From NCBI GenBank assembly GCA_007376485.1, contig VMGJ01000007.1:1-35644 (forward strand): a stretch of 35,644 nucleotides of DNA. The letters run 5' to 3'. Below, one piece after another: positions 13,983 through 30,275 of the stretch (the first letter of the stretch is position 1; every line of letters begins with the position of its first letter). The DNA comes from Parcubacteria group bacterium Licking1014_17. GTDB taxonomy: Bacteria; Patescibacteriota; Minisyncoccia; 2-02-FULL-40-12; IGHO2-01-FULL-4-A. The position numbers and the translations under genes are program-made. Under the pieces are notes generated by a model. It did no database searches. It had not been told where the DNA came from and was given only the letters and a program-made list of their open reading frames with translations.

Positions 13983-16514
13983 ATGGCTTTTGAGTCGCAC
14001 AGTTTTAATGCATGCGTGGTTTTTTGTGTCGCAATATTCATTATTGCGGCGTTCTCTTTCTCAATAGTCAATTTTGATAAGCCGGAAAATCAGTTTGGTT
14101 TTTTGGAATCGGCATCCGCCTATGAGGCAAGTTCGGCGACTAATTTCTTCATCCATGGCGGCGGGCTGACCAGTGTGGCAAGCTCCGGGCAGTCAACCTC
14201 CTATAAAGAATGGTCGGCTGGCGGGCAGGCAATTATAGGTCTCGCGTCGGCAGCGATTTCCAATCCGGCGCTGGATATCGGAGAAAACACAATAAGCACC
14301 ACAAGCTCTGCCGTATCCACCCAGGCCAGTTTTCAGCGCAAAACCTGGTATGACGGGTCAAGATATTGGGCGGCTTTTTATGACGGCGCGGATTCAATTG
14401 ATTTTTGGTATTCTAAGAATGGGAATTCGTGGTTGCAAAACAATTCGGCCACCATATCTGTTGCTACCCCCGATTTTTCGATCAAGGCGGATTCCAGCAA
14501 TGCTTACATTGTTTATACCGACGGGAATGACATAAAAATTAAAAAAGCCGCAAGTTACCCAGCGACAAATTTTTCATGGGGCGGCGCCACTACCGTTTTC
14601 ACGGGCGCGCCACACGATTATCCCGTAGTCGAAAAGGACACAAATAATAGAATAATGGTGAGTTCCAGAAGACCAAGCGCCGGTTTCTATTTAGTTTCAA
14701 ATTTATCAACCAACGCTGACGATGAGACAATATGGGACGGTGAAATCGTAATATCTGATACGGCGGAATCTAATTTCTATGGTGTTTTGGCCCCATTGTC
14801 AGGCGGCAATATGCTCTCGGTTTACGTCTTATATCAGAGTATGTACTACAGCGTGTGGGATGGCAGCAGTAAATGGTGGGGTCTGCCTGTCAGCATGAAT
14901 AATACTTCAGTGCTGGATGGATTGGAATACAATATGCAAGTCGTATCCGACCCTTCAGCTGGCAAGGCATACGCGTTTCATGGTGATTCATTCGGACTAT
15001 CTCTGGTTTTAGGAAAGTATTCCGAAAGCACCAATTCTTGGAGTAATGTTTTTTTAACCAATACCGCAGCTTCTTCTAAATATTTAACAATGAGCTTCAA
15101 TACTTCCAATAATAGTGATATTCACGTTTTTTGGGTGAATGACGCGGGTGGCGATTTATACACCATAAAGGTGAAAGCGCCCTACAATATTGCCGATTGG
15201 GAAAGTTCCCCAGTTGAACTTATCGCGTCAGCGTCGGATGTTAGATGGGTTTCCTCGGACTTTCATGAATCAACCCCAAAATATATACCCCTGATATGGA
15301 CGACCGGCGCCGGTAAGGTAAAATTCTATGGCAAATCAGTTGAAACTACCGATACTTTCTCGCTGGCAGGCATAGAAAATTTAATTTTCAGGATATTCAA
15401 GCCGGACTATGACCTTGTCCACTACCATTGGAGGAATGACGACGGGAGTGAAGCGGCGGCAACCTCCGCCACAAGTGGGGTGCAGGACACGGCTTTATCC
15501 GACCTGGGTTTGAACACCGTGGCCAGATTAAGGATTGAAGTTTCCAATGAGGGCGGTATAAATGGAATTTCAGCCCAGAAATTTAGGTTGGAGTATGGGA
15601 AGAAAGATACAACATGCGGGGCAATTTCTTCATGGACCGACATAGCCGACAACGGGGGAGACTGGGATATGTCAGCTTCCCAGCTGACTGAAGCCGGCGA
15701 TACCACCGATATCAGCAGCAGTTCCCTTGGGGGCATGGATGACGAAAATATTTCATTTCTTACCCCTAACGGCGGTCAGAGGGAATCCACAAGCCAGACG
15801 GGTGAGGTTACTCTTAACAGCAATCAGTTTGTTAATCTCGAGTATGCAATCAAGGCAATCGGCTCAGCGTCGGAGAATTATTGTTTCAGGGTGACTAATG
15901 CCGGTTCAAATACCAATTTTTCCTATTCCGAATATCCGGAAGCAAGTATAAAAATAACTACTATGACTCTGTCGGTTGACGCAGGAAGTTCCGTAGAGTT
16001 CGGCAGTTTGGCTTATGGAACTAGAAAGACCGACAACACAAGACTGAAAATAGATACCAACGAAACGAGCGGATACTTGGTTTCGGTTGGGCGCCAATGG
16101 GGGAAAGGACCGGCAAACGCGACATTAGCCTCAAACGCCAACTCAACCATTTATATAAATGACACGGAAAATGGCATTGATGTTTTTGACGGACTCGGCT
16201 CCAATTGCACTGACGCAAACGGGGCAAGAATATGGCCCGACAGTGCAGGTGTTTCTACGGGACTCGGGTTCACTGTCTGGAAGGCGGATATAAATAAAGA
16301 CACGGCTTGCTGGGGCACTGGCACGACAGTATCCAACTCGCTTAATAAATATGCCGCTTTTCCTGCATCTCCGGGCTTGAGCATAATTTCAACCACATCC
16401 AACAGCCCCAATCCATCTTTTGCTTCTATCGGCTACAGCTTAGAAATAAAACAAAATCAAAGGGCGACCAGTTATACCGGCAGTGTAATTTATACCGCTA
16501 CCGCCCCGCCATAA
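13983..16514 (+). CDS. Very large modular surface protein with a C-terminal WxL-like domain
   Basis: An 843-aa exported protein. A signal segment (residues ~10-33, ACVVFCVAIFIIAAFSFSIV) is followed by a region of repeated YxxNGNSW / AxxYIVYT-type strands (~100-460) resembling a beta-propeller or sialidase-like fold without visible catalytic residues. Next is a module starting HYHWRNDDGSE (~480-640) that includes ISSWTDI and ENYCFRVTN; a related module is in the dockerin protein at 25965. The C-terminal module (~655-843), with VEFGSLAYG, LGFTVWKADINKDTACWGTGT and QRATSYTGSV, is clearly related to the whole mature protein at 24216-24950. This domain's fold is reminiscent of WxL surface domains, but the assignment is tentative. 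The gene starts from a leaderless-type promoter and ends just before hairpin copy 2. Confidence 0.8.
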   Translation: MAFESHSFNACVVFCVAIFIIAAFSFSIVNFDKPENQFGFLESASAYEASSATNFFIHGGGLTSVASSGQSTSYKEWSAGGQAIIGLASAAISNPALDIGENTISTTSSAVSTQASFQRKTWYDGSRYWAAFYDGADSIDFWYSKNGNSWLQNNSATISVATPDFSIKADSSNAYIVYTDGNDIKIKKAASYPATNFSWGGATTVFTGAPHDYPVVEKDTNNRIMVSSRRPSAGFYLVSNLSTNADDETIWDGEIVISDTAESNFYGVLAPLSGGNMLSVYVLYQSMYYSVWDGSSKWWGLPVSMNNTSVLDGLEYNMQVVSDPSAGKAYAFHGDSFGLSLVLGKYSESTNSWSNVFLTNTAASSKYLTMSFNTSNNSDIHVFWVNDAGGDLYTIKVKAPYNIADWESSPVELIASASDVRWVSSDFHESTPKYIPLIWTTGAGKVKFYGKSVETTDTFSLAGIENLIFRIFKPDYDLVHYHWRNDDGSEAAATSATSGVQDTALSDLGLNTVARLRIEVSNEGGINGISAQKFRLEYGKKDTTCGAISSWTDIADNGGDWDMSASQLTEAGDTTDISSSSLGGMDDENISFLTPNGGQRESTSQTGEVTLNSNQFVNLEYAIKAIGSASENYCFRVTNAGSNTNFSYSEYPEASIKITTMTLSVDAGSSVEFGSLAYGTRKTDNTRLKIDTNETSGYLVSVGRQWGKGPANATLASNANSTIYINDTENGIDVFDGLGSNCTDANGARIWPDSAGVSTGLGFTVWKADINKDTACWGTGTTVSNSLNKYAAFPASPGLSIISTTSNSPNPSFASIGYSLEIKQNQRATSYTGSVIYTATAPP

Positions 16515-16576: not shown

Positions 16577-16630
16577 ATTCCCCGGACGGCGCGGCGGTTT
16601 TGAAAAAACCGCCGCGCTATTTCGGGGAAT
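16577..16630. repeat. Long perfect hairpin repeat, copy 2
   Basis: Same inner stem as copy 1 at 5360-5410: GCGCGGCGGTTTT (16589-16601) / AAAACCGCCGCGC (16605-16617), loop GAA instead of TTC, same CG/TA mismatch, then an outer stem ATTCCCCGGA (16577-16586) with TTCGGGGAAT (16621-16630, one G-U pair, and one extra T bulged before it). The outer stem differs in sequence from copy 1 but still pairs. The right arm encodes the last codons and stop of the convergent DedA gene (16617-17255). Confidence 0.8.
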
Positions 16631-17255
16631 GGTTCCTGTTTGTAAGTCTTTTAACGATGAAACGGGAAACCAAAACCATTGCGAACGCCGCCGTCAGAAC
16701 AATCCAGAGATGTTTCACATCTCTAATTTTGTAGATGTCGCCGAAATAATATCCGGCGCTGAACAAAATAGAAGAGCGTGCTATTATCCCCCAGAAGTTG
16801 ACCCATACATATTTTCTGAAGGGCATTTTTGCGAATCCGGCGGCGGTTAGAATGATTCTGCCTATGGAATACGCGAATTTGCCGAACAATAATGTTTTGG
16901 CGGGACTCTCCCGGAAGTGGCGTTCAATTTTTTTTATCTTTGATTCTACTTGAGGCTGGCTTAGTCCGAGCCAGAAAATAAACCACCTTGAAAATCTGTG
17001 CTGGCTTAACCATGAAATTATTTTTGCCGTCCATCCGCGCTGGTTGAGCCATGCTAGCAAATACCGTCCTAATAGATAGTGGTATGTGTCATCAATCATA
17101 TTCCCAGCCACTACTATGGCGTAGGCAACGGGACCGCTCACATATCCGAGGGCAACTAAAAAACCAACCAGGAACACATTCAGTGTTCCCTCAATCATAA
17201 TAATCGGCAGAAGTATCAATGCCGAGTGCCCCGCCAAAAGATGGGCTATATCCAT
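16617..17255 (-). CDS. DedA/VTT-family membrane protein
   Basis: A 212-aa polytopic membrane protein of the DedA (SNARE-associated Golgi, VTT) family, which moves lipid carriers or phospholipids across the membrane. Typical features are the N-terminal E...GT re-entrant region (LILLPIIMIEGTLNVFLVGF), the G-x-x-x-D-x-x-x-Y segment (GNMIDDTYHYLLGRYLL), the FGKFAYSIGRIILTAAGFAKMPF motif with conserved Arg and Gly, and the final helix. The ATG has GGAGG 5-9 nt upstream. It is similar to the DedA protein at 20434-21024 and belongs to the same lipid-related group. Its stop lies within hairpin copy 2, so its mRNA end contains that hairpin. Confidence 0.88.
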   Translation of the reverse strand: MDIAHLLAGHSALILLPIIMIEGTLNVFLVGFLVALGYVSGPVAYAIVVAGNMIDDTYHYLLGRYLLAWLNQRGWTAKIISWLSQHRFSRWFIFWLGLSQPQVESKIKKIERHFRESPAKTLLFGKFAYSIGRIILTAAGFAKMPFRKYVWVNFWGIIARSSILFSAGYYFGDIYKIRDVKHLWIVLTAAFAMVLVSRFIVKRLTNRNHSPK

Positions 17256-17339
17256 ATTTCCTCCGTTTCGCGTTCATTATTGACAAAGAGCAGTGATTAG
17301 ACACATATTCTTATACCCCCTAATCAATATGATGTCAAA

Positions 17340-17411
17340 ATAAAAAAGAGCCCATTAATGAGCGACTATTACAATGACATTCTCACATTCTCAAGAATGT
17401 GAGAATGTCAT
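17340..17411 (-). repeat. 17-bp perfect palindrome plus weak terminator-like hairpin
   Basis: ATGACATTCTCACATTC (17374-17390) and its exact complement (17395-17411) are separated by only 4 nt. Read on the minus strand this lies right after the glycosyltransferase stop (17417), followed by a weaker GCTC...GGGC hairpin and CTTTTTTATTTT (complement of 17333-17350 region), so together they may end transcription of the glycolipid operon. The palindrome alone lacks a T-run, so it may instead be a dispersed repeat. Confidence 0.55.
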
Positions 17412-17416
17412 ACTGC

Positions 17417-18427
17417 TTAGGGCTTGAGCAATTTTTGGTAAATATCCATTGTCTTAGCCGCCATTACGGGCAGACTGTTTTCTTCGGCGAGCTTTTGGGC
17501 TTGTTCTCCGAGGCGTTTCCGCAAATCGGCGTCTTTGAGCAGGCGGTCAAGGCAAATTCTAAACTCATCATCATTTTTTGCCTTCAGGCAATTCTGTTCG
17601 TGAACCAGCCAGCCCCGATAAACCGGAATGTCGCGGACCAGTATCGGCAAACCGAGAGCGGCGGCTTCAAGAATCACCATGCCCTGATTTTCTTCATAGG
17701 AAGGAAAAATAAAAATATCCAGTGAGTTGAAAGCCGCCAAAACATCGTCCACGTAACCAGTGAAATTCACATTGGCAGGAATTGTTTTAGGCAGTGCTTT
17801 GACAAATAGGGGATTGTAAATCTTGCCGTACCACATAAACCGATTCCCGGGGAATTTTTCTGCGAGATACAGAAATGTATTTATGCCTTTTCTCGGTATT
17901 GCCAAACCAATATTGCCGATAACAACTCCCGAAAGAGAATATTGCCTACGCGCTAATTCTCCTCTCATTTCATCTTTATAAAACTTTTTCAAATCAACCC
18001 CGTTTGACTGGGCGCGGAGTTTTTCGGCGGGCAAACCGTACGCCACTAGCAGTGACTTTGTATACTCACTCGGGCAGAAAACCATATCAGCTTGGCCATA
18101 AGCGTATTTAAGATATATTTTCGCGAGCACTGACAAAAATCCGCTGAATCTGAAAACTCCGCGTATATCTTCGGCCGTCACATGCGCCCAAATTATTACT
18201 TTTTTCCCCTTGGATTTGGCTTTTTTAATCAGCCAGATAGATTTTAACCACGGCGTGTTAATCTGGAGAATGTCGCAGGAATCATCCCATTTGTCGGTGT
18301 ACTCAATACCCAAATGTTTGAGAATCACCATCTGATTTTTATAAGAAGACAAAAGCCCGGTGCCTATCTTTTTATAAAACTTGCCTCCGAGAAAGTGATA
18401 AAATTCCAAATAAAGACAGATTTTCAT
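17417..18427 (-). CDS. GT4 glycosyltransferase, diglucosyl-diacylglycerol synthase-like
   Basis: A 336-aa GT-B enzyme. It begins MKICLYLEFYHFLGGKFYK and has SSYKNQMVILKHLGIEY, the opening typical of the second enzyme of the glucolipid pathway (diglucosyldiacylglycerol synthase of Acholeplasma, CpoA of streptococci). The GT4 donor-binding motif E-x7-E is seen as EENQGMVILE, preceded by IFIFPSYEE. The predicted reaction adds a second hexose to monoglucosyl-diacylglycerol at the inner membrane face; the amphipathic basic N-terminal half fits membrane association. It overlaps the upstream GT4 gene by 4 nt (ATGA), so the two are translationally coupled. Specificity is inferred from resemblance and pairing. 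Confidence 0.72.
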   Translation of the reverse strand: MKICLYLEFYHFLGGKFYKKIGTGLLSSYKNQMVILKHLGIEYTDKWDDSCDILQINTPWLKSIWLIKKAKSKGKKVIIWAHVTAEDIRGVFRFSGFLSVLAKIYLKYAYGQADMVFCPSEYTKSLLVAYGLPAEKLRAQSNGVDLKKFYKDEMRGELARRQYSLSGVVIGNIGLAIPRKGINTFLYLAEKFPGNRFMWYGKIYNPLFVKALPKTIPANVNFTGYVDDVLAAFNSLDIFIFPSYEENQGMVILEAAALGLPILVRDIPVYRGWLVHEQNCLKAKNDDEFRICLDRLLKDADLRKRLGEQAQKLAEENSLPVMAAKTMDIYQKLLKP

Positions 18428-19614
18428 ATTAATTTCAAACCGCCGTTACCGTTAATGACTTCGCGGTAAATATCGGTTAAAGAATTCATTTTATTTTTAA
18501 GAGAATGTTCTGTTACGAACTCCAGCGAAGCCGCGCTCATTTTAACCAATAAATCGCTATTTGAGCAGAGCTCTAAAATGTTTTTTGCCATGTCGTTTAT
18601 ATCATCCGCCTTTGAGAGGAAACCGTTAATCCCATGTCTTACCAGTTCGGGAATCCCTTTTTCCGAGACCGAAATGAACGGCAAACCTACAGCCATGGCT
18701 TCGAGCATGGTAATGGGCATATTTTCGCTTTTACTGGCGGTGATGAATATGTCGCTTGCCTGAAAAGCCTCGCGCAAATCGTGGCCCCGCAGAAATCCGG
18801 TGAAAATCATCCTGTCTTTTATGCCCAAGTCGGTAGCAAGCTTCTCAATCTTTTTTCTTTCGGGTCCGTCGCCAACTATCATAAGTTTAATCTCCAGATT
18901 CTTTTCTGCCGCCGAGGTGAAAGCTCTTATTGCTTGGTCTATGCTTTTTTCGTAGCTGACACGCCCGACATACACTAGGGAACAGCGGGGGAGCCCGAAT
19001 TTCTTTTTCAATTGCTCTTTAATATCCGTTGTCGCGGGCTTGAAAAAATCTATATCAACCGAGTTGGCGAGCACTTTAACGGGTTTATACAAGCCGCGTT
19101 TTACCATTTCATCCGCCAGCGCCTTGCTGGGGCTTAGGACCAAATCGCAGGAATTGTAATATTTCAGAGTCAGTTTCCAATTCAGCCATCTTCCGAGTTT
19201 AAAATCCAGTTTTACGTGTTTTAAATAGTGGTCGTAAAAAGTGTGGTGGGTGCCGACGAGTTTTATATCAAAAATTTTTGAAGCCAAAATTGACCACCAG
19301 CCCATGGTGAAGGGAGTGTGAGTATGAATTATTTCCGGCTTGAACTTCCTGATTTTATAAAGAGCTCGGAAGTCAATGGGCAAAGCGAATCTCTCCCCGC
19401 GGTAAATTATTCCGATAGGCAACGACGGGCAGAAAACAATTTCATATTTGCCGTTATTTTTGAGTTTTTTCTTGTCGGCTCCGGGTACAGCCGTGAAAAC
19501 CATCACTTCGTGTCCGAGCTCCGACAGAGTTTCGGCGGATTTTGTCGCCACATTGGCAACACCGTTGATTTGAGAGGAAGAAAAAAATGTGTCGCTGAAA
19601 ATAGCGATTTTCAT
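18424..19614 (-). CDS. GT4 glycosyltransferase, monoglucosyl-diacylglycerol synthase-like
   Basis: A 396-aa GT-B glycosyltransferase. The N-terminus MKIAIFSDTFFSSSQINGVA and the HTHTPFTMGWW / THHTFYDHYLKHVK segments match the family of 1,2-diacylglycerol 3-glucosyltransferases. The C-terminal donor site shows VYVGRVSYEKS, GDGPERKKIE and E-x7-E in SENMPITMLE. It probably transfers a hexose from UDP-sugar to diacylglycerol. It overlaps the upstream alpha/beta hydrolase gene by 4 nt (ATGA) and the downstream GT4 gene by 4 nt, in an operon of hydrolase, first GT4 and second GT4. Other GT4 substrates such as phosphatidylinositol cannot be excluded. Confidence 0.78.
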   Translation of the reverse strand: MKIAIFSDTFFSSSQINGVANVATKSAETLSELGHEVMVFTAVPGADKKKLKNNGKYEIVFCPSLPIGIIYRGERFALPIDFRALYKIRKFKPEIIHTHTPFTMGWWSILASKIFDIKLVGTHHTFYDHYLKHVKLDFKLGRWLNWKLTLKYYNSCDLVLSPSKALADEMVKRGLYKPVKVLANSVDIDFFKPATTDIKEQLKKKFGLPRCSLVYVGRVSYEKSIDQAIRAFTSAAEKNLEIKLMIVGDGPERKKIEKLATDLGIKDRMIFTGFLRGHDLREAFQASDIFITASKSENMPITMLEAMAVGLPFISVSEKGIPELVRHGINGFLSKADDINDMAKNILELCSNSDLLVKMSAASLEFVTEHSLKNKMNSLTDIYREVINGNGGLKLI

Positions 19615-20441
19615 CGTAATTGATTAACAAATTGAAGTGTTTTCTCCGCGACTTCCTCCTGATAACGGGAAGCCAAAAAATGCCCCGATTCAAGATGGAC
19701 TACCCTGCAATTGCGAATTTTATCAGCCATATCCTTGATTTCTCTGTCGGAGATAAAAATATCACCTTTGCCGTGCAATATCAAAGTCGGGCACGCAATA
19801 TTTTTTAACGATTCCGCGTAATTTAAGCGGAAAACCTCGGACAACATCCAGAAATTAACCGGCAGAGGCATTGTCAAATATCCCTTAAAGGTAGAGTCCC
19901 AGTAGCCCCGAGATTTGTTCTGCTCAAAATAAAGGTATTTTTTCCGTTTCTGCCAGATAAGCAAATAAGCCAGAGTATTCAGGAAAACATAACTGGAACC
20001 CGACAAAAAAGACAGCCAGCTGTATTTCATCGGGCTAACATGATTCGTGCTGATTAACACAAGGCTTTTGACCAGAGGGGGATTAGCTATGGCCAAATCA
20101 ATGCCTATATAGCCGCCGTATGAATACCCGACCAGATGGGCACCCTTCAGCCCTTCGTTTTTCATAATTAGTTCGATGTCCTTTCTTAGCGCAGGTATTC
20201 TATATCGGCTTCTTTTTTTGGACATATCCGAATAGCCATGACCGCGCAAATCAGGGGCAATGCTGTTGATGTTATTTTTAGCCAGAACATCCATTAGATA
20301 CAGCCAAGTCGTGTGATTGGACGACAAACCGTGCAAAAGCAAAACGGTCGGGCGGTCTTTGGATACAAAATGAGAAAAGTAGTAAATATTTCCCGCATTA
20401 GTGGCAACAAATTTTTTCTCCGGGTCTATCATGCTAATCAA
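19611..20441 (-). CDS. Alpha/beta hydrolase
   Basis: A 276-aa enzyme with the full alpha/beta-hydrolase signature: oxyanion-hole H37-G38, GHGYSD, nucleophile elbow G-Y-S107-Y-G, acid residue in LILHGKGDIFI and catalytic His in ESGHFLASR. No signal peptide is seen. It may act on lipid esters (for example a monoacylglycerol or lysophospholipid lipase) given its position between a DedA gene (8-nt overlap) and the glycolipid glycosyltransferases, but the substrate is unknown. A second ATG (residue 4, MIDPEKK) is an alternative start. Confidence 0.85.
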   Translation of the reverse strand: MISMIDPEKKFVATNAGNIYYFSHFVSKDRPTVLLLHGLSSNHTTWLYLMDVLAKNNINSIAPDLRGHGYSDMSKKRSRYRIPALRKDIELIMKNEGLKGAHLVGYSYGGYIGIDLAIANPPLVKSLVLISTNHVSPMKYSWLSFLSGSSYVFLNTLAYLLIWQKRKKYLYFEQNKSRGYWDSTFKGYLTMPLPVNFWMLSEVFRLNYAESLKNIACPTLILHGKGDIFISDREIKDMADKIRNCRVVHLESGHFLASRYQEEVAEKTLQFVNQLR

Positions 20442-21024
20442 GCGAAGATTTTTTGGCTAATCTCACGGAGACAAAATATACAATCACCAAAATAATAGCG
20501 ATAGCCAGCATCACAAACGCGGTTGAGTCAAAATATTTATTGATGCGGTCTATATAATTGCCGAAAAAGTAACCGATCAGCAGTAATATCAATGATTTCG
20601 GCAAAGTGACCAGAATATTTATTTTTATGAACCGCCAAAAGGGCATTTTCGCGACGCCGGCGGCGACCAAGGGAATTCCACCAATTCCATGAGTGATTTT
20701 TCCGAGCAATAAAGTCTTAATGGGATGCCGTTCAAAGTGAAGCTCTACATGCTCCAATCTTTTTTGATTAATTCCCAAAAAGCCCATAATTTTCGAGGCA
20801 TACCTGTGCCGGCTTGTCCGTCCCAGAAGATAATGCAGCGCGTCACCCGTGGTATCCGCAACCACAATAACCAAGTAAGCCAAATAAGCGTTCAGGTGGC
20901 CGAGCGAAACAAAAAAACCGGTGATTACCGTGACAATCGGGCCTTCCACGACAACAATCGGAAACAGTATAAGATACCGGTAAGCCAATAACAACGAGAG
21001 GATTTCATCAACGGAAAAATTCAT
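20434..21024 (-). CDS. DedA/VTT-family membrane protein
   Basis: A 196-aa membrane protein related to the one at 16617-17255. It has the acidic re-entrant motif LFPIVVVEGPIVTVITGFF, the D-x-x-x-D-x-x-x-Y-like segment ADTTGDALHYLLGR, the conserved GKITHGIGGIPLVAAGVAKMPF and a final long helix. The family is implicated in translocating undecaprenyl phosphate or phospholipids across the membrane. It is the first gene of the minus-strand operon and overlaps the hydrolase gene by 8 nt. A -10 box with extended TG (21037-21045) lies 12 nt upstream of the ATG, so the leader is very short. Confidence 0.88.
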   Translation of the reverse strand: MNFSVDEILSLLLAYRYLILFPIVVVEGPIVTVITGFFVSLGHLNAYLAYLVIVVADTTGDALHYLLGRTSRHRYASKIMGFLGINQKRLEHVELHFERHPIKTLLLGKITHGIGGIPLVAAGVAKMPFWRFIKINILVTLPKSLILLLIGYFFGNYIDRINKYFDSTAFVMLAIAIILVIVYFVSVRLAKKSSLD

Positions 21025-21797: not shown

Positions 21798-24158
21798 ATG
21801 AATAAAATAGATTTGGTTCTGTTAAAAATCCTTCGGTATGCGCTCTTATTTTCTCTTTTTTTCCCGCTGATAATTTTTAGAAACTCTTTCTCGCCCTTTA
21901 ATTTCGGCAAACTCATAGTTTTCCGGACTTATATAGAAATACTCCTACCCGTATTTTTGTATTTAATCATTAAATACCCCCAACTTAGACCATGGAAGTG
22001 GTCGAGTTCAGTGTGGGGTTTCTTTAAAAACAATCTGATTTTGTGCACGCTGGGGCTATTTCTGGTTTCTTATATCATCTCAACATTTGCTGGAGTTAAC
22101 TGGCGCTTAAGCTTTTGGGGTTCGTGGGAAAGAATGGGGGGATTGTTTTCTTTGCTTCATTATTTTATTTTTTTTCTCATGGTCGTGTCCGTAATCAGGA
22201 CGAAAGACGACTGGGTAGGATTTTTTTGGATTTTGGTTTCCGCGGCTTTTATATCTTCGGCTTATGGCTTCCTTCAAAAATTTACTTCGGGAGTGATTGT
22301 CGGGGCAACGGGAAGGTTCAGGATAGTGGGAACATCAGGCAACGCCGCCGCTTTTGCCGGCTATCTTGTCCTTAGTTTTTTTGTTGCGCTGTATCTATAC
22401 ACCCAAACTCGATCAAAAATAAAGAAGGGAATTTTGGCTGCTGTTTGCTGTATTTTTTCAGCGGCGGTTGTTATGACATTAACCAGGGGAACAATCTTGG
22501 CTTTGATTCTAGGTGCGGCATTTATTATAGGATGGTTTATCGCGAGATACTTGTTTAATGGTATCGCCGGTCTAAGAAAAAGAATTATTATTGCCGTCGC
22601 ACCGCTCATTTTGGTTGTCGTAGCCGCTTTGTCAATTTTCTTTTACACTCCCATTTCCCAAAATAATATTATCCGGAGGCTGACATTCACAACCTTTAGA
22701 AATACGGTGTCTTTTCGTTTGATTGTTTGGAACATGGCCCTGTCTGGCATTAAAGATAAACCTATTCTGGGCTGGGGTCCGGAAAATTTTGAAAGCGTAT
22801 TTTCGATGAATTACAATCCTAAAATTTTTGGAGGTATCGGCGATGTTTTTTACGACAGGGCCCATAATTTTGTATTGGATATTGCCTCTACCCAAGGCAT
22901 CCCGGGCATCATATTGTGGATGGCTTTTATTATTTCGCTTTTGATTTTCTTGATTCGTGAAAGAAATCCCGTGTTAATAGGTTTGCTTATCGCGTACTGC
23001 GTCCATAACTTTTTCTTTTTCGACCTTTTTTCCACTTACATGATAATTTTTGTGATTGCGGCTTACGTTCAGGGTGATTTTGCCCGTAGCGTCGCGGCGG
23101 CCGGAGCGGAAGAGCCCGGCGAGCCGGATAAAATTTACCGCTATCAAAAAATCTATATCCCCGGATTAATTGCACTCTTAATATTAATGGTATTTCTGGC
23201 GGTATTCACAAACATTAAACCGGCAATGGCTAATTATTATTCAACCCGGAGCGTTGTTTTGTTCTCCCAAAACATGGGCAGCGAAGCTTTGAGTTTTTTC
23301 GATAAAGCATACGCCGACGCGTATTGGTCAAAATGGGAAGTCAGAAGAAAACTGGCTGAAAGCTACATCAGCTATATTTTTAATGACGGCGCGTTTGTCA
23401 AGAAAGATTACAACAGAAAATATTTGAGCGAAATTATTTCCGGTTTTGAGGAGGAAATAAAAAATAACCCCGACGCGTATCCGAATTACATATATTTGAG
23501 CAAAGCCTACAGGGCGGACTCCATTCTGCTTAAAAATAATTCCGACGGCGGAGTGAATTGGGAAAACTTACTGCTTAATGCCCAAAAAAAGTTCCCGAAT
23601 TTGCTGCTTGTTTATAACGATCTATTCGATTTTTACATGGAAAAAGGGAAATTAGCTGAAGCCAGAACTATTATCACTGATGCTTCCGTGTTAAGAAATA
23701 AAAATTCTTCAAACATATCACCTGCGATAGAAGCAAGACTCGGCGCCGTATCGGTGTTTGAGGGCTTAAGTTTAAAAAATGAAGGCGAAATTAAGAACGG
23801 ACTGGAAATAATTTACAACACCATTGATTATCTCCATAGTCTTAGGGAAGTCGATTTTATCGATGATCATACAGTAATATTTTTGCGAGTCGGCGACAAG
23901 CTGAAATCATCAAGGAGGTATAAAAATATGGCTGAATTATATAGAAAAATGTCGGAGATTAACCAGAAATACTTTATTCTTGTCAGCTATTCTTATCTTT
24001 TGATGGGTGACAGACAAAATGCGTTGCTTTATGCCGATAAATCTTTGGAATTGAAATTTAATTTGGTCGGAAAAAACGGGTTTAAATTTTTATCCGACAT
24101 ATACAAGGCGCTCGGGGATAATAAAAAAAGAAGCGAGGCGTTGCTTAAAGACAAGTGA
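21798..24158 (+). CDS. O-antigen ligase (Wzy_C)-type membrane protein with TPR tail
   Basis: A 786-aa protein. Residues ~1-430 hold about 12 membrane segments with the Wzy_C signature region: TLTRGTILALILG, then a large extracytoplasmic loop with FRLIVWNMALSGIKDKPILGWGPENFE and YDRAHNFVLDIASTQG, in which the conserved R, GWG and H of the ligase active site are visible. After VFTNIKPAMANYYSTRS the C-terminal ~300 residues are TPR-like helical pairs (for example YPNYIYLSKAYRADS). Such proteins join glycan chains from a lipid carrier to an acceptor, which may be lipid or protein. The same architecture is seen in the cut gene at the left end of the window. It is followed by the WxL-like gene with its own promoter. 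Confidence 0.85.
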   Translation: MNKIDLVLLKILRYALLFSLFFPLIIFRNSFSPFNFGKLIVFRTYIEILLPVFLYLIIKYPQLRPWKWSSSVWGFFKNNLILCTLGLFLVSYIISTFAGVNWRLSFWGSWERMGGLFSLLHYFIFFLMVVSVIRTKDDWVGFFWILVSAAFISSAYGFLQKFTSGVIVGATGRFRIVGTSGNAAAFAGYLVLSFFVALYLYTQTRSKIKKGILAAVCCIFSAAVVMTLTRGTILALILGAAFIIGWFIARYLFNGIAGLRKRIIIAVAPLILVVVAALSIFFYTPISQNNIIRRLTFTTFRNTVSFRLIVWNMALSGIKDKPILGWGPENFESVFSMNYNPKIFGGIGDVFYDRAHNFVLDIASTQGIPGIILWMAFIISLLIFLIRERNPVLIGLLIAYCVHNFFFFDLFSTYMIIFVIAAYVQGDFARSVAAAGAEEPGEPDKIYRYQKIYIPGLIALLILMVFLAVFTNIKPAMANYYSTRSVVLFSQNMGSEALSFFDKAYADAYWSKWEVRRKLAESYISYIFNDGAFVKKDYNRKYLSEIISGFEEEIKNNPDAYPNYIYLSKAYRADSILLKNNSDGGVNWENLLLNAQKKFPNLLLVYNDLFDFYMEKGKLAEARTIITDASVLRNKNSSNISPAIEARLGAVSVFEGLSLKNEGEIKNGLEIIYNTIDYLHSLREVDFIDDHTVIFLRVGDKLKSSRRYKNMAELYRKMSEINQKYFILVSYSYLLMGDRQNALLYADKSLELKFNLVGKNGFKFLSDIYKALGDNKKRSEALLKDK

Positions 24159-24215: not shown

Positions 24216-24950
24216 ATGAAAGTTCACGCAGACAAAGGTCTCGTATTCATATTCATCATTGGTCTTCTTTCTTTTTTGGCATGGCTCGGTTTTGATAATG
24301 ACACCTACTATAATTTTATTAAGCCAGAATATGCGAAGGCGGCGACAAGCGCCGGTACTTCCACGCTGAATGTAACGGTTGCCGCTAATATTGCGCTGGC
24401 TATTGTCGGAACCTGCGACGGCGCGGCGGGTACCGTCTGTGATGCCGACAGCACCGTCAATCTTGGCACTCTTACTGCCGGCTCATCCAATAAGGGCAAC
24501 ATTCAGGTCAGGTCAACGAGCAACGATACAATAACTCTTGCTGTCGGGCGCGATAGGGCAAATCCCACTACCACGCTGGCTTCAACCGCGGATACTTCTG
24601 TTAATATTTCGGATTCTGCCGGTGGTATAGATGCGTTCGCCGGCTGCATTTCGCCGGATGCCACCAGACCATGGCAAGTCGCGTCAACCGGACTGGGGTT
24701 CGGCATTTGGAAAGCGTCAATTGACAAAGACACTACGTGTTGGGGAGCAGGAACCACAGTGAGTGATGCCCTGAACAGATACGCCGCACTGCAGGCATCT
24801 AATGGCGCTAACACAGCCTGGACGACAACCAGCGTTCCGACCGCCGGTATTGCGTTCGCGTCAGTAGGATTGCAGATTGACGTTTCCACCACCCAGAGAG
24901 CGACTACATACACAGGTGATGTTGTGCTAACGGAAACCACAACGCCATAA
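24216..24950 (+). CDS. Exported WxL-like surface protein
   Basis: A 244-aa secreted protein: basic start, hydrophobic segment (residues ~9-25, GLVFIFIIGLLSFLAWLGF), then a beta-rich mature part starting STLNVTVAANIALAI. It has VNLGTLTAGSSNKG, LGFGIWKASIDKDTTCWGAGT and TTQRATTYTGDVV, all matched in the C-terminal 190 residues of the 843-aa protein at 13983-16514. The strand order (an I/FGxLTxG turn, then TxxSGxxLxVxR-type strand) recalls WxL domains, which bind peptidoglycan non-covalently, but the literal W-x-L motif is not clear. The start of the DUF916-like gene 6 nt downstream supports this reading, because WxL proteins of Firmicutes are encoded next to DUF916 proteins. Assignment is therefore inference from context plus weak motif similarity. 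Confidence 0.65.
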   Translation: MKVHADKGLVFIFIIGLLSFLAWLGFDNDTYYNFIKPEYAKAATSAGTSTLNVTVAANIALAIVGTCDGAAGTVCDADSTVNLGTLTAGSSNKGNIQVRSTSNDTITLAVGRDRANPTTTLASTADTSVNISDSAGGIDAFAGCISPDATRPWQVASTGLGFGIWKASIDKDTTCWGAGTTVSDALNRYAALQASNGANTAWTTTSVPTAGIAFASVGLQIDVSTTQRATTYTGDVVLTETTTP

Positions 24951-24955
24951 ATTAA

Positions 24956-25882
24956 ATGATTATCAAATACAAAAAACAAATTGCCGGCAGATTGTTAATC
25001 AAATTGCTATTTGTCGTGGTTTTGTCACTTGCATTTCTTGTATTTCTAGCTAAGCACGCACTCGCAGAATATGGAGTTTCTGTTTCGCCGATCAGATACA
25101 GCTTTGAAGCAAAACCGGGCTCGGTGATTGAGGACACCCTGGTTATAATCAATCCCAATGATTTCGCGATAAAAGGAGAGACTGAATTTCAGGATTTCAA
25201 GATAATTGAGGGTAATGATATTCAGTGGATTCCCGGTGATGTTGAAAACCCCTATAAGATGAGTGACTGGTTTGATATAAACAGAAATGAAATAACATTA
25301 GGACCCAAAGAAGAAGTACGGCTTCCGTTTAAAGTCGAGATACCAGCCACGGCCACAGTCGGTGGTCATTATGCGGCTTTGTTTTTCAAGGGGATAATTG
25401 AAGGCGGGGTCGGGAGCGTTGGTGTTGTGCCTCGCGTCGGGTCTTTAGTCCTTCTGAATGTGCTTGGTGAAATGAAAAGAACCGGGCAATTAATCGGTTT
25501 ATCTGTCCCATCTTTTGTGAGTAACGGTCCCATAAAATTAACAGCGTCTTTTATAAATACCGGCACGACTCACTATGAAACCAAAGCCGATTTCTCCATC
25601 AAGAATTTCTTTTGGAAGAGCGCTGATATGTCGTCAAAATCGGTTTTCGTGTATCCGGAAGTTAAGAGAGAAGTAACCACCGAATGGAATAATAAGTTTC
25701 CTTTTGGCGTGTATACCGCGCAGGTGTCAATGAAAGACGGCGAGGGTAACACCTATCAGAAATCGAAAATATTTGTTGGCTTACCTTACAAATATCTGTT
25801 GATTTTCCTTGGAGTGGTGATTGTTTTGTGGGCAGGGGTTGTCTGGTTTAAGAAAAAATTTAAGCTTGTTGAAAGAAAATAA
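24956..25882 (+). CDS. DUF916-like exported protein with C-terminal membrane anchor
   Basis: A 308-aa protein with the architecture of WxL-interacting proteins: signal peptide (LLFVVVLSLAFLVFLAKHALA), first beta domain beginning YGVSVSPIRYSFEAKPGS and containing VIINPNDFAIKG, YKMSDWFDI, LGPKEEVRLPFKVEIP and VGGHYAALFFKG (DUF916-like), a second beta domain (residues ~150-265, LIGLSVPSFVSNGPIKL...TTHYETKAD, DUF3324-like), then a C-terminal membrane helix (LLIFLGVVIVLWAGVVW) and a basic tail. In Firmicutes these proteins bind WxL proteins and peptidoglycan. It is 6 nt downstream of the WxL-like gene, so the two form a pair. The mapping onto DUF916/DUF3324 was made by eye. Confidence 0.72.
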   Translation: MIIKYKKQIAGRLLIKLLFVVVLSLAFLVFLAKHALAEYGVSVSPIRYSFEAKPGSVIEDTLVIINPNDFAIKGETEFQDFKIIEGNDIQWIPGDVENPYKMSDWFDINRNEITLGPKEEVRLPFKVEIPATATVGGHYAALFFKGIIEGGVGSVGVVPRVGSLVLLNVLGEMKRTGQLIGLSVPSFVSNGPIKLTASFINTGTTHYETKADFSIKNFFWKSADMSSKSVFVYPEVKREVTTEWNNKFPFGVYTAQVSMKDGEGNTYQKSKIFVGLPYKYLLIFLGVVIVLWAGVVWFKKKFKLVERK

Positions 25883-25905: not shown

Positions 25906-25935
25906 AACCACTCCGCTTCGGCGGAGTGGTTTTAT
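25906..25935 (+). terminator. Rho-independent terminator after the DUF916-like gene
   Basis: Perfect 11-bp stem AACCACTCCGC (25906-25916) / GCGGAGTGGTT (25921-25931) with a very stable TTCG tetraloop, followed by TTATATTC. It separates the WxL-like pair from the dockerin operon. Confidence 0.85.
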
Positions 25936-25964: not shown

Positions 25965-27929
25965 GTGAGTAATATGAACCGTTGCAATCCCAAAAGCTGC
26001 ATTCTTTATTTGATAATCGCGTCTTTGTTTTGTAGTTTGCTGATTATCGGTACAGCCAATGCTTCGCTTATAAATGACGTGGCGAGGATAATATTGTCCG
26101 TCAGAACCGTGAGAGTGGAACAGAAACTTTTCAGATTTTATAGCCCCACGAGCAATTTGACGCCGTATGATATGTGGCCGCCGGCGAACTATGATATTGC
26201 CGAAAGTACCAATATTTCTGAAAGCAGTTTTCCGCCACTTTACGGGAGTACAGCCAGATTGAGGATCGGATTGAAAATATCTAATGTTGATTTGCCCGAG
26301 GGCAGCAGGCAATACAAAATACAGTTTGCTAAATTAAGTTCCGGGACCTGCTCGGATATTTCCAGCTGGACATATCTGGGCGACCCCGATTCAGCCGCCG
26401 CCTGGCGCGGATTTGATATTTCCCCGCTGGCTGACGGTGCAACTATTACTGATAATCTTTTGACCGGAGCCAGTGTTAAGGGAACCTATGAAGAAAGCAA
26501 TTCAACTGGCTTGAACCCCGCGGCATCGGTAGACGATATTATTGAATACGATTGGTCTATCCAAAATAATATTTCTTCGCCCGACGGCGCCACATATTGC
26601 TTTAGGATGGTAAATAACGACGGTACGGCATTAGACACTTATACAAAATATCCGCAAATTATTTCTCCTTTATTGGAAGAAGCGTCCGCGACAGGGGAAA
26701 TCGACGTAGCTACCGGGGGTAATCTTGTTCTGACAAACCCCGACAGCTCCAAATTAACAGCAACTATACCGGCTAATTATCTGGCAGCATCTCACTCTTT
26801 CGGTATTTATTCTTTTGATTACAATGATTACTTGGATCGCATCGGGAGCCAGCCGGTCGGAAAGTCGGGAGCGAATTCTCATATTTACAGGCTTGTAGCA
26901 GAGAAGGACAAGATAGCCAGCCATTCGTTTCAGCAGCCAATAGATTTGCAAATAAAATATCTGGATAGCGATGTTTCTTCTTTGGAAGAGGACAGCCTCC
27001 AAATTTATAAATATAACAACGGAAGCTGGTCGGCGCTTTCAACGGTTGTGGATATGGACGCCAACACCGCAACCGCGGAGACGTCTGATTTCAGTTCATT
27101 CGGTTTATTTGGCACCGTAAAAACGCCAACGCCGACTCCGACCGCGACTGCCACATCTACGCCAACGCCCACAGCAACTCTCGGCGGTGGAGGTGGAGGC
27201 GGCGGCGGGGGAGGAGCGAATCAGACAGCCACGGTAATTATCAGGGGTCGGGCTTATCCGGACGCAGAGGTAACTTTCGTGAGAGATGCCCAGTTTATTG
27301 CGAAGGTAAAAGCGGACTCACTCGGTTATTTTGAAGCCCGGGAAAGCAATCTGACGGGCGGCGGCTACAATTTCAGTTTGTGGGCGGTGGACAAGAGCGG
27401 CGTAAAATCCAACGCTTACACTTTCTATGCGGACATTCCCGCGGGGGCAATCATCCAGTTTATGAATGTTTTGATTCCGCCGACCATTTCCATCGGTTCG
27501 GAAACGATAAAGCCCGGTGAAAATTTGAAAGTATTCGGCTCGAGCGTTCCGGAATCATATGTCGTTATAGAATTAAGGTCCGAGCCGTCGATATTTACGA
27601 CCATTGCCGCGCTTACCGGTTCTTATTCTAAATATGTTTCATCGCAGGGCTTGAGCCAAGGCAGCCACTCCGTGAAATCAAAATCAAAAGTCTCTTCCGG
27701 CGATGAATCAAACTTCTCCAATATTTTGACTTTCGGAATCGGCACGCCGCCGGCCAAAAAATACTTGATAGGCGATTTAAATAAAGACGGACACGTAAAT
27801 ATCGTGGACTTTTCAATCTTGGCTTTTTGGTACAAAAGATTCGGCTTTCCGCTTGATTATGATTTAAACAGCGATGGTAAAATTGATTTGAAGGACTTTA
27901 GCATAATGGCATTCCATTGGACGGGATAA
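25965..27929 (+). CDS. Exported multidomain protein with C-terminal type I dockerin
   Basis: A 654-aa secreted protein. Order of parts: signal peptide (residues ~10-29, ILYLIIASLFCSLLIIG); a module related to HYHWRNDDGSE module of the 843-aa protein (~40-230, with SDISSWTYLG and ATYCFRMVNND); a second module ending TSDFSSFGLFG (~231-383); a Thr/Pro linker then an 11-glycine run; two Ig-like/beta modules (~425-590); and the dockerin (~602-654). The dockerin has both calcium-binding half-repeats, DLNKDGHVNIVDF and DLNSDGKIDLKDF, each with the D-x-N-x-D-G loop and terminal Asp, and the usual hydrophobic helix after each. Dockerins bind cohesins; two cohesin genes follow. Start may be GTG 25965 or ATG 25974 (MNRCNPKSC). 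Confidence 0.88.
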   Translation: MSNMNRCNPKSCILYLIIASLFCSLLIIGTANASLINDVARIILSVRTVRVEQKLFRFYSPTSNLTPYDMWPPANYDIAESTNISESSFPPLYGSTARLRIGLKISNVDLPEGSRQYKIQFAKLSSGTCSDISSWTYLGDPDSAAAWRGFDISPLADGATITDNLLTGASVKGTYEESNSTGLNPAASVDDIIEYDWSIQNNISSPDGATYCFRMVNNDGTALDTYTKYPQIISPLLEEASATGEIDVATGGNLVLTNPDSSKLTATIPANYLAASHSFGIYSFDYNDYLDRIGSQPVGKSGANSHIYRLVAEKDKIASHSFQQPIDLQIKYLDSDVSSLEEDSLQIYKYNNGSWSALSTVVDMDANTATAETSDFSSFGLFGTVKTPTPTPTATATSTPTPTATLGGGGGGGGGGGANQTATVIIRGRAYPDAEVTFVRDAQFIAKVKADSLGYFEARESNLTGGGYNFSLWAVDKSGVKSNAYTFYADIPAGAIIQFMNVLIPPTISIGSETIKPGENLKVFGSSVPESYVVIELRSEPSIFTTIAALTGSYSKYVSSQGLSQGSHSVKSKSKVSSGDESNFSNILTFGIGTPPAKKYLIGDLNKDGHVNIVDFSILAFWYKRFGFPLDYDLNSDGKIDLKDFSIMAFHWTG

Positions 27930-27933
27930 TTTT

Positions 27934-28848
27934 ATGAAAAAATATTTATTTAAACAAAATAATCTCTGGAGCATCTGTATAATAACTGTTTTAGCGGTTG
28001 CTGTTTACGTTTTTGGAGCACCGTCCGCGAGGGCAGCCCGATTTTATTTTGAAAAAACCGTCGAAAACATTGAGATCGGCAGTTATTTTCAATTGGACGT
28101 GAAAATGGATACGGAAGGGGAGAGCATCAATGCCATTGAGTCAAGAATCGTTTTTCCCAAAAATATTTTTAAGTTTGCCGGCGCCCAAGACGGAAATTCA
28201 GTCATCAATCTTTGGGTTGCCAAACCTACGGCGGGGGATGAAAATATCAAAGGAGATTTATCGTTCGCCGGCCTTACGCCGGGGGGCGTTAAAACATCCG
28301 CCGGTAAAATTATAAGCTTGCGTTTCTATGCCTCTTCCAACGGAGAAGCCAGAATTAGTTTCAGGGACACAAAGGCTTATTTAAATAGCCAAGACGCCGA
28401 AAGCGCGTCTGTAAAGGTATCAGACCTGGTATTGAATATAAGTTCGGCGAGAAAAAAATTGCCAGAAGAGCCGGCCATCCAAGATTCCGCACCGCCAGAA
28501 ACCTTCGGCATATATTTGTCAAAATCGCCCGGGATATATAATGGCAAGTGGTTTATCTCATTTGCCACGCAGGATAAAAACTCCGGCATCAATCGCTATG
28601 AAGTAAAAGAGTCGCTTTTCGGCATCTGGGGCGGTTGGATAGCCGGGGGCAGTCCCTACCAGCTGACACGCCAGAGTTTATTTAGTATAATAAGAGTAAG
28701 AGCCACGGATAATGCCGGAAATTCGGTAGTTGTATGGCTTGTCCCGGTGAGGCTGTACATCCTATGGGTGTTAGCGGCGGTGTTGATTATTTTGGTGACT
28801 ATTGTTTTTGTCAGAAGAATAATTTTAATAACATCAAAAGAAGTATAA
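27934..28848 (+). CDS. Membrane-anchored cohesin protein
   Basis: A 304-aa exported protein. A signal peptide (IITVLAVAVYVFGAPSARA) is followed by a cohesin-type beta domain (residues ~33-175: RFYFEKTVENIEIGSYFQL, MDTEGESINAIESRIVFP, GDLSFAGLTPGG, GKIISLRFYASSNGEARISF), an Ig-like segment (~190-270, SGINRYEVKE, VRATDNAGNSVV) and a C-terminal membrane helix (LYILWVLAAVLIILVTIVFV) with a basic tail. Cohesin domains receive dockerins and make calcium-dependent scaffolds. It starts 5 nt after the dockerin gene, so both are co-transcribed, and the membrane anchor would hold the dockerin protein on the cell surface. Confidence 0.85.
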   Translation: MKKYLFKQNNLWSICIITVLAVAVYVFGAPSARAARFYFEKTVENIEIGSYFQLDVKMDTEGESINAIESRIVFPKNIFKFAGAQDGNSVINLWVAKPTAGDENIKGDLSFAGLTPGGVKTSAGKIISLRFYASSNGEARISFRDTKAYLNSQDAESASVKVSDLVLNISSARKKLPEEPAIQDSAPPETFGIYLSKSPGIYNGKWFISFATQDKNSGINRYEVKESLFGIWGGWIAGGSPYQLTRQSLFSIIRVRATDNAGNSVVVWLVPVRLYILWVLAAVLIILVTIVFVRRIILITSKEV

Positions 28849-29648
28849 GCCAACGGAATAAATTAATTATCGGCGCAGCGCTTTTAGCTACGGCTTTCTT
28901 CGCCCCCAAAACGGTTTTCGCGGCAAAACTTTTCGTTTCGCCCGCGCAGGGCTCATTTTCGGTCGGCGGTACTTTTTCAATATCGGTTAAAGTAAACACA
29001 GAGGGCACGGCGATGAATGCCGCCGACGGCGTTTTAAATTTCAGTAAGGACCTTATGGAATTAACGGGTATTTCAAAAACCGGGAGCATCGTTACTTTGT
29101 GGGTGCAGGAACCGGCTTATTCCAATTCAAATGGTTCGCTTGATTATGGAGGCGTGGTTTTAAATCCCGGCTATAACGGCACGAGCGGCACAATTTTAAC
29201 CGCCACTTTCAGAGTCAAGGGTGCCGGCACGGGAGCCGTAAGTTTTTCGTCGGCTTCGGTTTTAGCTAATGACGGTCTCGGAACTAATATATTAAGTTCT
29301 TCCAGCGGCGGCTCGTACTCGTTTATTTCTAAAAAGGCAGCTACTCCCTCGCCGGTTGCAAAAACGCCCACACCCGCGCCCAAGCTCGCGCCGGCAGTAT
29401 TTTCCTCAACACATCCAGACCAGAACAAATGGTACCGGAACAACAACCCCGTCGTCGGATGGAGCGTGCCGGCGGACGTAAAAGAAGTAAGAATTGATTT
29501 GGATAAAACTTCAACCGTGCCCCAAGCCGGCTATCCGCCAACAACCGCCGAAAAATCTTTTGTCGGAGTGAATGACGGCGTTTGGTATGTAAATGTTCAA
29601 TTTATAATGCCGACCGGACCCGGTCCGGCAAGTTCATTTAAGCTGTAG
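28764..29648 (+). CDS. Second cohesin protein, N-terminal part (ends at in-frame TAG)
   Basis: Exported cohesin protein in the same layout as its neighbour. Signal peptide (LIIGAALLATAFFAPKTVFA), cohesin domain (AKLFVSPAQGSFSVGGTFSI, VNTEGTAMNAADGVLNFS, LDYGGVVLNPGYNG, GTILTATFRVKGAGTGAVSF), a Pro/Thr linker, then SSTHPDQNKWYRNNNPVVGW, the start of a beta domain. The frame stops at TAG 29646-29648, yet the same frame continues for 209 codons with the expected rest of the protein. The true start is uncertain: the only in-frame ATG near the signal peptide is 28764, which overlaps the previous gene by 85 nt; a non-ATG start near 28810-28840 is possible. Confidence 0.75.
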   Translation: MGVSGGVDYFGDYCFCQKNNFNNIKRSISQRNKLIIGAALLATAFFAPKTVFAAKLFVSPAQGSFSVGGTFSISVKVNTEGTAMNAADGVLNFSKDLMELTGISKTGSIVTLWVQEPAYSNSNGSLDYGGVVLNPGYNGTSGTILTATFRVKGAGTGAVSFSSASVLANDGLGTNILSSSSGGSYSFISKKAATPSPVAKTPTPAPKLAPAVFSSTHPDQNKWYRNNNPVVGWSVPADVKEVRIDLDKTSTVPQAGYPPTTAEKSFVGVNDGVWYVNVQFIMPTGPGPASSFKL

Positions 29649-30275
29649 ATAGATACCACAAAACCGCTTGATTTTACAATTAAAACCATTGCTCCTGAAA
29701 ATTCAGCCGACATCCAGCCCTGGATAGTATTTGAAACCAAAGATACAATTTCCGGCATTGATTATTATGAAGTAAAAATTGGCGATGGTGGCTGGGTGAG
29801 AGTGGAAAAAGAATCAGCAGGGAAGCCCTACAAACTGCCGATTGATAAAGCCGGCAAATATGACGTAACCGTAAAAGCCGTTGATAAAGCCGGAAATTAT
29901 TCCGCCGCGTCAACCGTTATTGAAGCCGGAGCCGCTGTTAAACCCGGAGCCGGTTTGCTGTATTCAATCGTGACTTCTCTGTGGTTTCTTATAATCGTGG
30001 CTCTGGTTTTGCTTTTGATAATACTTTATCTCTTGAGAAAAAGTATTCCGGGCGTGGATGATTTATTCGCTGATGTCAGCGGCGTGTGGAAAAGTTTTAT
30101 GGTGCGTGAACACATGGAAAAGGAGAGCGGAACAAGACCAGAAGTTCTGTCTTTGCAGGGGGATATAAAAGAAGAGCTTGGTTTCTTTGACGCGATTTCC
30201 CGCCAGCGCGAACTAAACCCCGACGAGAAACGCATAAAAGAAAAACTTGAAAAATGCCTGCGGATTTTAAGATAA
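29649..30275 (+). pseudogene. C-terminal remainder of the second cohesin protein
   Basis: Continuation, in the same frame, after the TAG at 29646-29648. It begins IDTTKPLDFTIKTIAPENS and continues through an Ig-like segment (SGIDYYEVKIGDGGW, YDVTVKAVDKAGNYSA), a membrane helix (VTSLWFLIIVALVLLLIILYLL) and a cytoplasmic helical tail ending KCLRILR, matching the Ig-like/membrane-anchor layout of the first cohesin protein. As it stands the anchor is not translated with the cohesin domain unless the stop is read through or is an error. A frame starting at the ATG at 29796 alone would begin in the middle of the Ig-like domain and lacks a signal peptide, so independent function is unlikely. It ends 9 bp inside the convergent murB gene. 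Confidence 0.7.

Follow-up and report, generated by a model that had tools for sequence, protein, structure and literature searches.

Cohesin-dockerin pairs that do not belong to cellulosomes are established in archaea and clostridia. How Patescibacteria attach to their partners and build their surfaces is largely unknown. For these modules in Patescibacteria there are single reports only: the dockerin protein SEML1_0315 of Southlakia (Saccharibacteria), which is essential in Tn-seq and has been speculated to act on host glycans (PMC10633639), and expressed cohesin and dockerin genes of Shapirobacterales of the CPR, which were read as a cellulosome (PMC9123182). Within the open-access literature (subscription papers were outside the scope), no description of a conserved dockerin-cohesin operon and no paper joining a cohesin domain with Parcubacteria was found, and the conserved operon described here appears to be unreported in that literature.

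The analyzed stretch of DNA (the window) is one entire contig of 35,644 bases (G000:C10) of a parcubacterial genome of 790 kb, which is 99.75% complete. It carries a triad composed of a dockerin gene (dockP) and two cohesin genes (coh1 and coh2), all located on the plus strand.

Modular structure of the dockerin protein

The first gene, dockP (25965..27929), encodes a protein of 654 aa with the following modules: (i) a signal peptide; (ii) a variable head of ~370 aa (about aa 35-405); (iii) a Pro/Thr stretch; (iv) a hinge of 11 glycine residues, evident from the sequence (aa 407-417; 27183..27215); (v) a conserved stalk of two Ig-like domains of the Big_6 type (27225..27764); and (vi) a C-terminal dockerin domain (27768..27926) whose two repeats each contain a calcium loop (F-hand). 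The earlier note on this DNA had claimed a dockerin with both calcium-binding half-repeats, and profile search and alignment bear this out: the domain scores 26.5 bits against PF00404 (cut-off 22.9), or 31.8 bits with both half repeats counted, and its two calcium loops, DLNKDGHVNIVD (27774-27809) and DLNSDGKIDLKD (27861-27896), are canonical. An alignment with about 35 other dockerins shows strong conservation of these loops and of the DFSI motif next to them. Genome-wide, this is the only canonical dockerin.

Comparison of 41 dockP proteins showed that nearly all of them keep both Ig domains and the dockerin in conserved form; the stalk is present in 97-99% of the proteins, as opposed to 6-78% for the N-terminal blocks, and matches Big_6 in 29 of them. 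Glycine runs of at least four residues occur in 28/41, and the region preceding the run varies in length from about 20 to 450 aa. None of the 41 proteins contains a recognized catalytic Pfam domain, which agrees with the earlier description of the dockerin protein as lacking one.

The cohesin genes coh1 and coh2

The coh1 gene (27934..28848) starts 4 nt past the dockP stop and encodes a protein with a signal peptide, a cohesin domain (aa 35-170; 28036..28443), a second Ig-like domain and a predicted C-terminal membrane helix (aa 273-303; 28750..28842). The window protein scores below the cut-off of the cohesin profile PF00963 (18.6 vs. 24.1 bits), which is matched by 8 of the 23 coh1 family members (best 4e-5). 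When a profile built from 23 coh1 orthologues was compared with the PDB, nine of the eleven matches were cohesins, each of them individually weak (best E 0.003). The AlphaFold model of the window protein (pLDDT 88.8, mostly >90 within the cohesin domain) matches only cohesins among the best 50 PDB folds listed (best E 2.3e-11); the fold matches 2xdh, 2vo8, 2w1n and 2jh2. Judging from the orthologue profile, the PF00963 matches of the family and this predicted fold, coh1 is a cohesin-fold protein, and structure prediction thus sustains the cohesin domain that had been proposed.

The second cohesin gene is interrupted. An in-frame TAG (29646..29648) parts the cohesin half of coh2 (28764..29648, start uncertain; a cohesin homologue followed by an Ig-like domain) from the membrane half, where the same frame runs on (29649..30275) through another Ig-like domain and a membrane helix (about 29979-30041) into a charged cytoplasmic tail. 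Most orthologues have Q, N or R at this position and read through without interruption; the intact proteins are typically about 480-670 aa long. Candidate starts of coh2 are two ATG codons (28764 and 28734) and a non-standard codon in the vicinity of 28845. At the coh1/coh2 junction there is no ATG, GTG or TTG start in the coh2 frame, the codon overlapping the coh1 stop being ATA (28845); the sole standard in-frame starts, the two ATG codons named, lie well within coh1, the nearest of them 81 nt upstream of the ATA. A reassignment of TAG was rejected, since TAG terminates five of the 29 window genes and is therefore an ordinary stop here. Decay or a contig error is a likelier cause of the interruption than expression by unusual means. 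The coh2 gene of this genome has probably degenerated or been truncated, which would leave coh1 as the working anchor.

The window coh2 does not match PF00963, which is matched by 13 of the 21 coh2 family members (best 1.4e-9). The coh2 profile gave Ig-like matches and no cohesin in the PDB, and the cohesin status of coh2 thus rests on its orthologues. Of the two cohesin-type proteins with C-terminal helices named in the earlier note, coh1 was confirmed, and coh2 did not hold as one open frame; the cohesin profile failed on the window proteins and succeeded on members of both families. That note mentioned neither the in-frame stop nor the terminator found upstream of the triad (see below).

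Genomic neighborhood and a second locus

Three plus-strand genes precede the triad. The first, wzyC (21798..24158), encodes a membrane protein of the O-antigen-ligase (Wzy_C) family with a TPR-like tail (PF04932, E 1.1e-19). The second (24216..24950) encodes a small secreted protein with the C-terminus TTYTGDVVLTETTTP and with homologues in loci L034, L035 and L044; searches of Pfam and NCBIfam gave no match, and its classification as a WxL protein was dropped for want of a profile match. Its C-terminal pattern is shared with a secreted protein of very unlike size (843 aa; 13983-16514; TSYTGSVIYTATAPP), which also has no Pfam match. The third gene (24956..25882) encodes a WxLIP-like membrane protein with a signal peptide and a C-terminal helix, which scores below the PF06030 threshold (20.0 bits, cut-off 27.3; E 7.5e-4); 8 of 13 members of its family match this profile at E 0.01 or better (best 5e-7).

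Of 89 loci, 47 have a WxLIP-like gene on the upstream side of their dockerin gene. The order wzyC, small secreted protein, WxLIP-like protein is common to L034, L035 and L044, and in the latter two the series is followed by the dockerin triad. In the window, a strong intrinsic terminator (25906..25931, plus strand), composed of an 11-bp stem, a tetraloop and a T-rich tail (-23.9 kcal/mol, z -6.5), separates the WxLIP-like gene from the triad, and a single larger operon running from this gene through the triad is therefore not supported here. An Rfam search of the region revealed no RNA element. A minus-strand block of glycosyltransferase, hydrolase and membrane genes (16617-21024) looks like an insertion into a conserved cluster, since the genes flanking it adjoin each other in L035 and L044.

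Locus L034 (7107-10602; G000:C11, about 78.1-81.6 kb) is a second dockerin-cohesin-like locus of the same genome. It encodes a protein of 214 aa with a weak, degenerate dockerin (16.6 bits to a local profile), a protein of 226 aa and a cohesin protein of 718 aa that lacks a C-terminal helix. These genes adjoin paralogues of the window wzyC and WxLIP-like genes, and the whole trio found upstream of the triad recurs there.

Conservation of the gene order

A dockerin-profile search of 143 related genomes, run independently of cohesins, yielded 70 sites that exceed the cut-off, distributed over 51 genomes. At 46 of these sites, in 40 of the 51 genomes, a cohesin homologue in the same orientation lies no more than 500 nt downstream. 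In about 35 loci that were fetched, between one and four cohesin genes come after the dockerin gene, usually overlapping slightly or separated by a short gap. The coh2 family was also used to scan named genomes separately, which gave 80 loci spanning Yanofsky-, Portnoy-, Wolfe-, Falkow-, Magasanik-, Niyogi-, Komeili- and Uhrbacteria, among others; the two genome sets overlap in part. Where at least 700 nt of upstream sequence was available, the dockerin gene directly precedes the cohesins in 66 of 69 coh2-selected loci (62 by a strict 60-nt overlap rule, plus L080, L092, L107 and L149, with longer overlaps). Among 380 genomes of the whole phylum, 148 carry a dockerin, 112 a cohesin and 75 both (Fisher p 6e-13, uncorrected for kinship). 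The succession of a dockerin gene, cohesin 1 and cohesin 2 is maintained across Parcubacteria beyond chance, and the triad suggested from one sequence recurs as a set of neighbors in dozens of genomes.

Several variants of the locus were observed. Cohesin and dockerin are apparently joined in single proteins in G038:C1 (46687-47274, 252 aa), G079:C64 (13201-13812, 237 aa), G454:C8 (2119-2916) and G477:C8 (27715-28536); such proteins could in principle chain into polymers. L066 (G142:C2) encodes an enlarged dockerin-like protein of 2053 aa, L055 (G134:C46) a coh1-coh2 fusion in one ORF of 865 aa, and L037 (G005:C4) a coh2 of 1231 aa with an extra cohesin-like domain at its end. Insertions into otherwise conserved operons include a PD-(D/E)XK-type domain fused ahead of coh1 (L045, 8643-9947) and a small GIY-YIG-like ORF between coh1 and coh2 (L035, 10314-10571). 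Multi-dockerin arrays, in neighboring genes or within one protein, occur in more distant members of the phylum (G208:C27, G233:C33, G233:C36 and G312:C48).

Topology and the proposed display system

By simple hydropathy, the dockerin proteins possess a signal peptide and almost never a membrane helix (a hydrophobic helix beyond residue 60 in 1 of 110), and a helix near the C-terminus was found in 76 of 93 coh1 and 127 of 139 coh2 proteins (203/232 cohesins together). In a relative (L039), a single stop codon is all that interrupts a shared frame of dockerin and coh1; it was read as a residue to give a joint model. The resulting chain (pLDDT 87, pTM 0.74) again contains the cohesin fold; the tether could force the contact, and the interface error is not reported for this model. 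Its scores are higher than would be expected for spatially unrelated domains and are compatible with docking, though weak as support for it.

The triad is best read as a non-cellulosomal, calcium-dependent surface display system, to which we assign a probability of roughly 0.7. The domain identities, the topology (by hydropathy and model) and the conserved gene order are established here; the pairing of this dockerin with these cohesins and the contacts of the head are inferred. DockP would be secreted without a membrane anchor of its own, and its C-terminal dockerin would bind the cohesin domain at the N-terminus of coh1 and also that of coh2 where this gene is intact; C-terminal helices would fix both cohesin proteins in the cytoplasmic membrane. 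Held in this manner, dockP would project from the cell as a stalk formed by the two Ig domains and the glycine hinge, and the species-variable head may perform adhesive or structural work.

Cohesin and dockerin occurring together are the signature of a cellulosome, in which cohesins gather dockerin-bearing enzymes for polymer degradation, and the Shapirobacterales genes were taken in this sense (PMC9123182). Such a complex is highly improbable here and was rejected, because the 99.75% complete genome holds a single canonical dockerin, in a protein without a recognized catalytic domain, and enzyme domains are absent from the dockerin proteins of such loci (0/41). Moreover, each window cohesin protein carries one cohesin and there is no scaffoldin array; a scaffoldin with several cohesins is absent from the window, fused or multi-cohesin forms being confined to a few relatives (L055 and L037). 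The cohesin assignment, the lack of recognized enzyme domains and the conserved neighborhood support the proposal of the earlier note that the assembly is structural or adhesive rather than degradative.

If the pair is adhesive, its partners could also sit on different cells: one cell may release or carry the dockP that binds the cohesins of a neighbor, whether kin or partner. The missing anchor of dockP would suit this arrangement, as would the relatives in which cohesin and dockerin share one protein (G038:C1 and G079:C64) and could chain; the tandem coding of receptor and ligand, however, favors binding in cis, and the variable head resembles an outward-facing part, which makes adhesion in trans unlikely. 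It is also rather improbable that the proteins with the cohesin fold are Ig-like surface adhesins of a general kind, merely adjoining a dockerin gene and forming no specific dockerin-cohesin bond. The window cohesins do fall under the Pfam cut-off in a cluster rich in Ig-like domains, but the order is fixed across dozens of genera, with a selective neighborhood, and conservation is strong in the calcium loops and in the DFSI motif beside them.

A display system of this kind matters in two respects. A conserved ligand-receptor pair whose interaction chemistry is very well studied offers a direct, testable handle on the patescibacterial surface, and the locus argues against taking cohesin and dockerin genes in Patescibacteria genomes as cellulosomes. 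More speculatively, the display system may serve the whole phylum as a self-contained substitute for sortase or S-layer anchoring, in which a conserved Ig stalk bearing interchangeable heads clicks into membrane cohesins by means of calcium; the essential dockerin protein of the epibiont Southlakia would belong to the same system, which would be core to host-cell attachment. This extension is possible, though doubtful.

Comparison with known systems

Like dockP, SEML1_0315 is a cell-envelope protein of Patescibacteria that has a dockerin domain, but the word cohesin is absent from the paper describing it (PMC10633639). An intact coh2 shares its architecture (a cohesin domain followed by Ig-like domains, a single membrane helix and a cytoplasmic tail) with the TMEM132 family of animals, for which no dockerin partner is known in vertebrates, the resemblance being one of architecture only (PMC6030884).

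With the clostridial cellulosomes (type I/II; PF00963 and PF00404) the triad has in common the interaction modules, the duplicated calcium loops and the cohesin fold. In contrast to them, the window proteins have membrane helices as anchors, and neither a catalytic domain nor a carbohydrate-binding module nor a scaffoldin with several cohesins was found among them. Cohesin and dockerin without cellulose degradation are likewise known from Archaeoglobus fulgidus (2xdh), from glycoside hydrolases of Clostridium perfringens (2vo8, 2w1n and 2jh2) and from ANME archaea (PMC9012536). However, the modules of C. perfringens are borne by enzymes and the domain combinations of ANME archaea are widely varied (PMC9012536), and what sets the parcubacterial locus apart from these non-cellulosomal pairs is the fixed dockerin-cohesin-cohesin order, which recurs across Parcubacteria.
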